Of a stretch of DNA of 36,599 nt, positions 19,670-22,387 are shown piece after piece (the first letter of the stretch is position 1; every line of letters starts with the position of its first letter). The notes beneath the pieces were generated by a model. It was given only the letters and a program-made list of their open reading frames with translations, was not told the DNA's origin and made no database searches. A program made the translations under genes and the position numbers. The stretch is from Oceanobacter sp. (GTDB lineage: Bacteria; Pseudomonadota; Gammaproteobacteria; Pseudomonadales; Oceanobacteraceae), in the NCBI GenBank assembly GCA_002733645.1, contig NVWL01000056.1, forward strand, positions 1 through 36,599, written 5' to 3'.

Positions 19670-20704
19670 TTAAAGCACGGCACCTATGTAGTAAATAAAT
19701 ACAATTAACACAGTCGTCACCGCCATAAATAACACCAGCGCATGACGAACTAACGTAATCGCCTGCGGAATGTCTTTAGTGGTTGCAAACGCTCCCGCTC
19801 CCATTCGAGGCTTCTGCTTTAACACCCCATCATAGCTAGCTTTCGCGCTGAGCTTTACATTAATAGCGCCAGCCCCAGTCGTCATGACTACACCGCCGTT
19901 TGGGCTATCACAATGCTTAGCCTGAGTTTGCCAGCATTCTAGCGCTCGATCACGATGTTCCCCCGCCACCCAAACAAAACAAAAAGCGGTTAAGCGCGCA
20001 GGCACCCAAGCCAGCACATCATCTAATCGCGCAGCGGCCCATCCAAAATAATAAAAACGACTATTTTTATAGCCCCACATAGCATCTAACGTGTTCACCC
20101 AACGGTGAAACAATGCGAAGGTAGCGCCTCCGATTAAGAACCAAAATAAAGTCGCAAAAAGTGCATCCGATGAATTTTCTAACACACTTTCAATATCCGC
20201 TTGAGCTACCTCGTCTGCAGATAATAGCTTGGTATCTCGACTAACAATCAAACCTAGTTTGTCTTGTGCCATCCCCAAATCATCGATGACCAAAGACTGC
20301 CAAACATCAGAAACATGCTCTTGTAAGCTTTGCCAGCCAAGGCACAAATACAAAATAAGCACTTGTAAAATACAAGCACTGACAATTGATGTCCCGGAAA
20401 CCCAATAAAAACACATAACAATTAATATTATTGGTGATAAGGTTAATAAAACCGCAAACAGTCCGCCGAGATAACCCGCCTTGCCTGGTATATTATTCAT
20501 TCGCTTCTCGATGAACTTAGCCCAGAGACCAAACCCCACCAGCGGATGAAACTTCTTAGGTTCACCTAAATACGCATCTAAAAGCAGCGCAACAAACATC
20601 ATCACCAGCAACGCCAATACGCCCCAGTGGAATGAAATAGAGTCTTGGTACAGCCAGAGAATAAACATAAAAAACAACCAACGATAAAGCGCTGAGTGTA
20701 ACAA
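19670..20704 (-). CDS. cbiB: Adenosylcobinamide-phosphate synthase CbiB/CobD
   Basis: The up to 344-residue membrane protein has several hydrophobic helices and the family blocks ALLLDAYLGEPKKFHPLVGFG, IVSRDTKLLSADEVAQADIESVLENSSDALFA, WGYKNSRFYYFGWAAARLDDVLAWVPARLTA and SPNGGVVMTTGAGAINVKL. It joins aminopropanol phosphate to adenosylcobyric acid. The start is uncertain: the longest frame uses TTG at 20704, and an ATG at 20668 would give 332 residues; neither has a clear ribosome-binding site. It lies immediately downstream of the rnpB terminator repeat array, and no cobalamin riboswitch is visible upstream. Confidence 0.92.
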   Translation of the reverse strand: MLHSALYRWLFFMFILWLYQDSISFHWGVLALLVMMFVALLLDAYLGEPKKFHPLVGFGLWAKFIEKRMNNIPGKAGYLGGLFAVLLTLSPIILIVMCFYWVSGTSIVSACILQVLILYLCLGWQSLQEHVSDVWQSLVIDDLGMAQDKLGLIVSRDTKLLSADEVAQADIESVLENSSDALFATLFWFLIGGATFALFHRWVNTLDAMWGYKNSRFYYFGWAAARLDDVLAWVPARLTAFCFVWVAGEHRDRALECWQTQAKHCDSPNGGVVMTTGAGAINVKLSAKASYDGVLKQKPRMGAGAFATTKDIPQAITLVRHALVLFMAVTTVLIVFIYYIGAVL

Positions 20705-20915
20705 GAAATAATCAATGAGGAAGACGTTTAGAAGCTACGAATAACAGCGATTATGGATTCAACACGAGACTATCACTATTAATGGATACCCGCCTACTTG
20801 CGTAAGCGGGGTTCTGGTAAAAATGGAGTCAGCCGGTAAGCCTTTGTTTTTATCAAGAGTCGTCGTGAACAGTTAACTGTCTACGCATGTCCGGCTTAAA
20901 TCTAAAACAATAAAA

Positions 20916-20943
20916 AACCCCGCCTACTTGCGTAAGCGGGGTT
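20916..20943 (-). terminator. Second copy of the rnpB terminator
   Basis: Same AACCCCGC/GCGGGGTT hairpin as at 21046-21073, 130 bp further downstream, also followed on the minus strand by TTTTTTATTGTTTT. A third copy (around 20789-20812) keeps a shortened stem but has lost the U-tract. Confidence 0.75.
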
Positions 20944-21045
20944 CTGGTAAAAATGAAGTCAGCCGGTAAGCCTTTGTTTTTATCAAGAGTCGTCGTGAAC
21001 AGTTAACTGTCTACGCATGTCCGACTTAAATCTAAAACAATAAAA

Positions 21046-21073
21046 AACCCCGCCTACTTGCGTAAGCGGGGTT
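21046..21073 (-). terminator. rnpB: rnpB terminator (proximal copy)
   Basis: GC-rich 8-bp outer stem (21046-21053 with 21066-21073) followed on the minus strand by TTTTTTATTGTTTT. It starts 12 nt after the P1 strand that ends RNase P RNA. Confidence 0.85.
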
Positions 21074-21084
21074 CTGGTAAAAAT

Positions 21085-21452
<368 letters not shown>

Positions 21453-21459
21453 GGCGCGG

Positions 21460-21488
21460 AGAATAGCAAAACTGGTCGATGCTGTCGC
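21460..21488 (-). promoter_or_regulatory. rnpB promoter
   Basis: On the minus strand GCGACA (21488-21483), a 17-nt spacer and TATTCT (21465-21460), with TG one base before the -10 (extended -10, TGCTATTCT). Seven to eight nt further is the expected 5' end of rnpB (21453-21452), a good fit. Confidence 0.65.
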
Positions 21489-21526
21489 CGCTAAAATGAT
21501 GTTAAAACAGAGAGTTACCGACCAAT

Positions 21527-22387
21527 TTAGATCCTTCCTTCGAGTTCTGGCTTAAATACTTCTTCCCAAAGTGTTTCGAATCGTTGTCTATGCCAACCTA
21601 TGTGTCCAATTCGCTTCTGCCCAATGTCTGACGGTTGTACGACCACTCTCTTCTGAGTCGAATTGGTATAAAACGCGTGGAGTAAATCCGTATTTTTTAC
21701 CGACATCATTTCATCATCAGTAAAAATAATTGAAGTGATTGGCGCTTTGACACTGGCATAACGATCACGCAACCAAGAGCCTTCTTTGCCAATAGAGTAG
21801 TTGCGATGCAAGCACCAACGTCGCCACTGCATAATGACCCCTTTGGGCATGTCGCACAGGATGCCCAGCTTGTTTCCGGGGAAATATCCAAAAATTGGTA
21901 CCGTCACTGGAACAATGACGTACCACAACAACCAAGCTATACGACGTGTCGGCCAAGCGTTGTACCACCATGTACCCGTCCCAGCGCCCACTGTGATAAT
22001 ACGATCAATTAATTTAGTGTCCGGCATCATGCCGGGCAAATGCCCGCCAATACTATGACCAATCCAGATACGTTCTAAGCTAGGAAATGTTTCAGCTACA
22101 TATGTTAATACCGTAGGGCAATCGTGATTTGCCCAACTCATTTTATCGCTTTTTGAGTCTTTGACATGATCCTCAACGGATAAGCCGATGCCATCATAAT
22201 CAAACGTGACCACTTGATAACCTTGCTTGGTTAACCACACAGCAAAATCATCATATAAGTACTGCGCCACTCCGGTAGCACAGGAAATTATGCAAACGCC
22301 TTTAGCGTCTTTTGATGCGGACTCAAAATGACGTGCAGCAACGTTATGGCCAGCGCCGGTCGGTAAATAAAGTGTTTCTGGTTTCAT
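21527..22387 (-). CDS. Alpha/beta hydrolase, COG4757-like
   Basis: The 286-residue soluble alpha/beta hydrolase has the nucleophile elbow GHSIGG (110-115, Ser112), an early VVTFDYDGIGLS strand-turn, an acid candidate in IIFTDDEMMS and a C-terminal histidine in GHIGWHRQRFE. The pattern fits the predicted hydrolases of COG4757, whose substrates are not known. ATG 22387 has GGGGAT 8 nt upstream. It is 19 nt behind marR and presumably in one operon with it, so the regulator's ligand may be related to this enzyme's substrate (inference). Confidence 0.8.
   Translation of the reverse strand: MKPETLYLPTGAGHNVAARHFESASKDAKGVCIISCATGVAQYLYDDFAVWLTKQGYQVVTFDYDGIGLSVEDHVKDSKSDKMSWANHDCPTVLTYVAETFPSLERIWIGHSIGGHLPGMMPDTKLIDRIITVGAGTGTWWYNAWPTRRIAWLLWYVIVPVTVPIFGYFPGNKLGILCDMPKGVIMQWRRWCLHRNYSIGKEGSWLRDRYASVKAPITSIIFTDDEMMSVKNTDLLHAFYTNSTQKRVVVQPSDIGQKRIGHIGWHRQRFETLWEEVFKPELEGRI

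Follow-up and report, generated by a model that had tools for sequence, protein, structure and literature searches.

Altered copies of the rnpB 3' end behind rnpB in Oceanobacter sp., with a likeness to the rnpB repeats of E. coli and a short insert that appears to matter

The rnpB gene of an Oceanobacter sp. is followed by a tandem array of altered copies of its own 3' end; judged by its build, this array belongs to a known kind, the rnpB 3' repeats of the E. coli type. Each unit carries a short insert that is absent from rnpB and that appears, from comparison across genera, to matter. We favor, at slightly under an even chance, a reading in which the array is an old altered cassette of the rnpB tail that multiplies terminators behind the gene. 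E. coli carries 113-bp repeats behind rnpB, which were reportedly described in 1982 by Reed and colleagues, and to our knowledge these have so far been treated as a local curiosity. A literature search returned no paper treating these repeats, a result that says little about novelty because early papers lay outside its reach. Passages in two papers deal with the rnpB terminator as used in a plasmid (PMC6610125) and with rnpB pausing (PMC9291695).

The window, by which we mean the whole stretch of 36,599 nucleotides analyzed here (contig NVWL01000056.1, positions 1 to 36,599), holds rnpB with the array directly downstream, on the same strand and head to tail (Table 1). The original prediction had read this locus as rnpB followed by tandem altered copies of its own 3' end, and both the match of the gene to RF00010 and the direct repeats confirm it. 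There are indeed two full 130-nt copies that differ at 2 positions. A 54-nt part occurs three times, the third copy being the end of rnpB itself (21049-21102), and the last 54 nt of the units share 98% identity with this gene end, in agreement with the expectation that the last 50 nt or so would be nearly identical. The diverged part was likewise rightly taken for a copy of rnpB: 28 nt of it align with the 3' part of the gene with 21 matches, at a score of 14 compared to a shuffled mean of 6.7, and this score is reached by only 1 of 2000 shuffles for each window unit (by 5 and 2 of 2000 for the two units under stricter scoring). The palindrome named in the prediction is present as well (CGTGAACAGTTAACTGTCTACG).

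Table 1. Features of the rnpB locus in the window (positions count from the first letter of the window)
Feature	Position	Strand	Evidence or remark
rnpB, bacterial class A RNase P RNA	21081..21452	-	RF00010, 327.8 bits, whole model
Gene-end intrinsic terminator T1	21044..21075	-	with T tract
Unit 1, 130 nt, closest to rnpB	20919..21048	-	repeat search; model R1, 59.6 bits
Unit 1, diverged counterpart of the gene's P2 3' strand region	20992..21019	-	21 of 28 match the gene
Unit 1, 19-nt insert replacing AGAACCC	20973..20991	-	interrupts conserved ACAGAA, alters P4 3' strand
Unit 1, GGCTTA, P1 3' strand and terminator stem	20919..20972	-	54 nt common to the gene end
Unit 1 intrinsic terminator T2	20914..20945	-	with T tract
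Unit 2, 130 nt	20789..20918	-	repeat search; model R1, 61.4 bits
Unit 2, 19-nt insert, identical to that of unit 1	20843..20861	-	
Last-unit hairpin without T tract (terminator lost)	about 20789..20811	-	outside the terminator-like sites found
CobD/CbiB, next gene in the direction of rnpB	19670..20704	-	PF03186, 3.5e-86

Two of the predicted details stood in part. An insertion is present in each unit, but its size differs from the predicted 10 nt or so, since 19 nt lie between CACGAC and GGCTTA where rnpB has the 7 nt AGAACCC, a net gain of 12. A terminator in each copy was found at the gene end and in unit 1, both with a T tract, but not in the last unit, whose hairpin lacks one. An assembly artefact, for which the prediction had allowed, does not account for the unit itself, because it is present in many separate assemblies, those of related genomes included; the copy number in the window, which comes from a draft genome of 86 contigs, could be an assembly matter. 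Far from the array, positions 8-696 of the window hold a tandem repeat with a period of 225, 3.1 copies and 70% matches.

We compared the array with the systems that it most resembles. The E. coli K-12 record holds three 113-nt units, in each of which GATGAATGACTGTCCACGAC precedes 19 nt replacing AGAACCC, then GGCTTATCGG, the P1 strand and a terminator. Like these, the window units form a head-to-tail array behind rnpB on the same strand, repeat the 3' end of the gene together with its P1 3' strand, and hold 19 nt at the identical point instead of AGAACCC; unit 1 also has a terminator. They differ in unit length (130 nt in the window, 113 in E. coli), in sharing only parts of GAATGACTGTCC, where the window has its palindrome, and in the last terminator, which is dead in the window. 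In 3864 of 5426 E. coli genomes, a 130-nt query made from one unit finds a site covering at least 80% of its length, and the number of units in six strains ranges from three (K-12 and NRZ101721) through one (two strains) to none (M-17 and strain 119). The tyrT (rtT) repeats are tandem repeats behind an E. coli tRNA gene, likewise containing a stable RNA gene's 3' end; they belong to another gene and have another unit.

The insert interrupts the conserved core ACAGAA in each unit, and it costs P4 pairing in most loci, though not in all. In the window's family, in Neptuniibacter and in Enterobacterales, AGAACCC of the core strand is replaced in the units by 18-20 nt, and no second ACAGAACCCGGCTTA, allowing at most one substitution, was found within 1500 nt in 73 distinct rnpB loci with 134 units, all picked by insert pattern or relatedness, which means that the presence of the insert there is by choice. 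Independently of this choice, among 44 family genomes the end recurs in gene-like form only kilobases away, behind integrase elements (G006 and G020). Pairing, terminators and P1 strands were analyzed in 73, 73 and 76 loci, respectively, with duplicate loci counted once and units without rnpB within 3000 nt of the same locus left out. In 64 of the 73 loci the P4 5' strand of the gene loses 3 kcal/mol or more when paired with the units rather than with its own 3' partner. The nine exceptions are L175, L209 and L220 together with L023, L031, L041, L096, L179 and L217, the last six belonging to the 13 loci that represent the window's family and Neptuniibacter; in the window's group, therefore, the loss is seen in only 7 of 13 loci. 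P1 pairing lies within 1 kcal/mol of the gene's in 39 of the 73 loci and is weaker by at least 3 kcal/mol in 19. The window units keep P1 pairing (from -13.5 to -12.2 kcal/mol) and largely lose P4 pairing (from -13.2 to -5.1), so that an extra tail in the window could contest P1 but hardly P4. The original prediction had further proposed that tails made by read-through might compete for the 5' strand of P1 or give rise to small RNAs.

To survey other genomes we relied on a model built from 17 units (R1) and a broader one built from 36 (R2). R1 matches of at least 44 bits outside the gene occur in 12 of the 44 genomes of the window's family and in three of the nine of its genus. Four genomes of the genus have no unit (G001, G002, G003 and G008), G004 has a remnant only, and in G005 the gene end lies off its contig. 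In G004 (L265), AAGCCGGTTTTG stands behind the rnpB terminator, later followed by GGATGACTGTCC, and these appear to be what is left of a degraded unit. In G003, rnpB is followed by one terminator and then by frames that are, by eye, CobD-like and aminotransferase-like, with no unit; because these neighbors are similar to those in the window, the array came or went between like neighbors. Inspection by eye showed degenerate units in G018 and G027. In G013 (L046, 1646-2743) the first unit is separated from a second one, some 1.5 kb away, by two small frames, and a similar frame follows the degenerate unit of G018.

The wide surveys scored 12-18 candidates per genome (107 in the survey of the 44 family genomes) and missed degenerate units, and within these bounds units are rare. 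In a draw from the class, R2 matches were found in 51 of 369 genomes and units in one, the window's own; the other matches have the extent of a gene end (42-45 nt), the exception being a 53-nt match in G120, which is an rnpB with an extra hairpin. A draw from the order, which missed G006, gave 13 passing genomes out of 390, four with units (G000, G013, G015 and G694) and nine with the gene end only; the five places in G694 equal those of the Neptuniibacter pectenicola genome. In the order of Pectobacterium aroidearum, 21 of 295 genomes passed; eight of them carry units, and a further one (G919) carries a cut unit. A pattern scan of named genomes returned at least 80 stretches, mostly from Enterobacterales, plus Neptuniibacter and Thalassolituus (NCBI taxonomy places both in Oceanospirillaceae) and three chance hits without rnpB in the locus, which were left out (L163, L183 and L212). 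A contig labelled Chryseobacterium sp. 18061 (L221) carries five enteric-type units and looks like assembly contamination. No unit away from rnpB was found in the window's own genome or in 11 whole genomes that were searched, and a dispersed mobile repeat was rejected on this ground; in phage and plasmid collections the window units had no match at the set limit.

Such rarity (1 of 369, 4 of 390, and 8 plus one cut unit of 295 genomes) speaks for a history in which a slip once copied the gene end, recombination with rnpB kept the ends alike and the units had no function. The same holds for copy number, which changes quickly and varies within E. coli and between close relatives of the window. 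We nevertheless consider neutral duplication of this kind unlikely, given what the insert and the terminators show.

The likeness between unit and gene ends was measured on the 12 bases after GGCTTA, which form part of the P1 strand. Units match their own gene at 11.21 of 12 positions and the genes of other genomes at 8.79, and none of 2000 permutations gave a value as high; all 12 bases of the own gene recur in 79 of 138 units (76 loci). The trend is also detectable in the 13 loci of the window's group (10.74 for own and 7.95 for other genes, with no permutation as high). Going by these matches, unit ends and host rnpB ends are in concerted evolution. This result supports the gene conversion of the end that had been proposed, and recent re-amplification, proposed along with it, is supported by the 2 differences in 130 nt between the window copies.

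The insert has another history, since it cannot derive from rnpB, which lacks it. Among 25 genera of Enterobacterales, each represented by a single unit, its first 12 nt share 7.86 of 12 positions, compared to 5.20 after shuffling (sd 0.07), whereas the nearest 12 nt of spacer remain at background level (5.17 and 5.02, respectively). Between Enterobacterales on one side and the window's family and Neptuniibacter on the other, 53 x 15 distinct 12-nt cores share 5.73 positions, compared to 4.96 after shuffling (sd 0.13, none of 300 shuffles as high). When one unit per genus was compared with a picked set of six Oceanospirillaceae-type units, from which the weaker G006, G019, G023 and G428 were left out, the values were 6.57 for the insert, 5.12 after shuffling and 4.65 for the spacer; the effect with all distinct inserts, given above, is smaller than this, though still beyond the 300 shuffles. 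The window insert resembles the 72 enteric inserts with a p of 0.01 (8 of 300 shuffles as high in a repeat test), in support of the ancient duplication of the original prediction, although the K-12 insert is by eye among those less similar to it. Taken singly, 6 of 19 inserts reach p 0.05, including those of the window, G015 (0.01), G007 (0.0025) and Neptuniibacter, and those of G006, G019, G023 and G428 stay at chance level. We regard the inserts of Enterobacterales and of the window's group as homologous, whether through descent or through transfer; the patchy distribution is compatible with either.

A neutral slip does not lead one to expect 12 nt conserved across 25 genera next to a spacer at background. 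It is possible, though rather unlikely, that the unit is a functional element of Enterobacterales, Neptuniibacter and the window's family whose insert is under selection over about 12 nt, either in a tail RNA that would tune how RNase P folds or is processed, or as a site at which a read-through tail would be bound or cleaved.

Terminators also speak against units free of function, as they persist with changed stems. Of 73 loci, 66 have one at the gene end, and terminators were detected in 51 of 61 inner and 48 of 72 last units, compared to 26 of 1030 shuffled segments, and the stem sequences differ between copies in 47 of the 57 loci with at least two terminators. The last unit has no terminator in 24 of 72 loci, the window included. 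By the identical test, five genomes have none at the gene end or in any unit (G846, G988, G1086, G998 and G1018), and the units of G873 have none. Since those five genomes have units with an insert and no terminator, termination cannot be the whole story. Several of the terminator-less units in the same five genomes (L291-L294 and L298) begin with an inverted copy of GAATGACT.

The cassette reading that we favor would tie these observations together as follows. A tandem tail cassette would have arisen long ago from the 3' end of rnpB. Polymerase reading through the first terminator would be caught at the next one, and the extra tail would be trimmed off during 3' processing. The altered core strand may keep this tail from competing for P4, and hence out of the ribozyme, while unequal recombination would multiply and lose copies and recombination with the rnpB end would keep them gene-like. 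Several results temper this reading. Besides the units that carry no terminator, and the relatives and E. coli strains that have no unit, the conservation of about 12 nt of the insert is unaccounted for, because a mere break of the core strand needs less of it, and our confidence is reduced by the 6 of 13 loci of the window's group without loss of P4 pairing.

Conservation of the insert, both inside Enterobacterales and between Enterobacterales and the window's family and Neptuniibacter, would fit a reading in which unit and insert are made as a read-through or processed RNA that acts on RNase P or on another partner. We hold such a tail RNA to be quite doubtful, as only 6 of 19 inserts are significant singly and a search of window positions 20600-21560 found no sigma-70-type promoter-like site. 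A common RNA fold was rejected, RNAalifold on 17 units having returned four pairs and no compensatory change; five stretches of unit size, among which that of G007 is out of register, do fold with z from -1.9 to -3.8, terminator stems included. When the insert was paired with rnpB in 63 loci, the sites were scattered (mean z -0.47), and such pairing was rejected for lack of consistency. Nor does the upstream spacer pair in general with the P2 strand, the mean z over 137 units being 0.12, compared to -0.46 for the control.

Two further readings of the insert and the unit were rejected. A hairpin within the insert has a mean z of -0.32 and p of at most 0.05 in 11% of 90 inserts, although single inserts pair well, such as CTCTTCACAAGAG in G1086. 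A small protein, suggested by an open frame in the K-12 unit, is not conserved in frame between species by eye, and the ATGAATGACTG frame meets TGA in inserts with CATGA or TATGA (also by eye). Inverted arms are found in some lineages only (the window's family, Tatumella, and G1086 and its kin), and the window has a weak inverted match (p 0.055 in unit 1 and 0.0085 in unit 2).

In the window's family rnpB seems to be an attachment site. G006 (L039, 3628-12905) and G020 (L053) carry elements with DUF6538, DUF3258 and Phage_integrase at the 3' end of the gene, that of G006 also with a KAP NTPase and a resolvase, and G027 (L260 and L028) has an element with an integrase-like frame there; rnpB is left whole in all three. 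The displaced ends at the tyrosine-integrase elements of G006 and G020 resemble the array in that a second rnpB 3' end lies downstream, but they keep the core strand and are kilobases away behind the element, whereas the units are altered and adjacent. That the units are attachment-site remnants of integrative elements entering at the rnpB 3' end is very improbable despite these elements, because their right ends displace the gene end intact or as a short core and not as a unit, none of the four neighbors of the window array that we tested (CobD/CbiB, an aminotransferase, a hydrolase and a MarR protein) is an integrase, and the units are constant in build.

The comparison makes the rnpB repeats of E. 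coli testable, as it sets out a conserved insert that appears to matter, the lack, in the arrays examined, of tandem copies whose core strand is intact, and units with and without terminators. In practice, repeats are encountered at this locus both by probes to the 3' end of rnpB and by assemblies from short reads.
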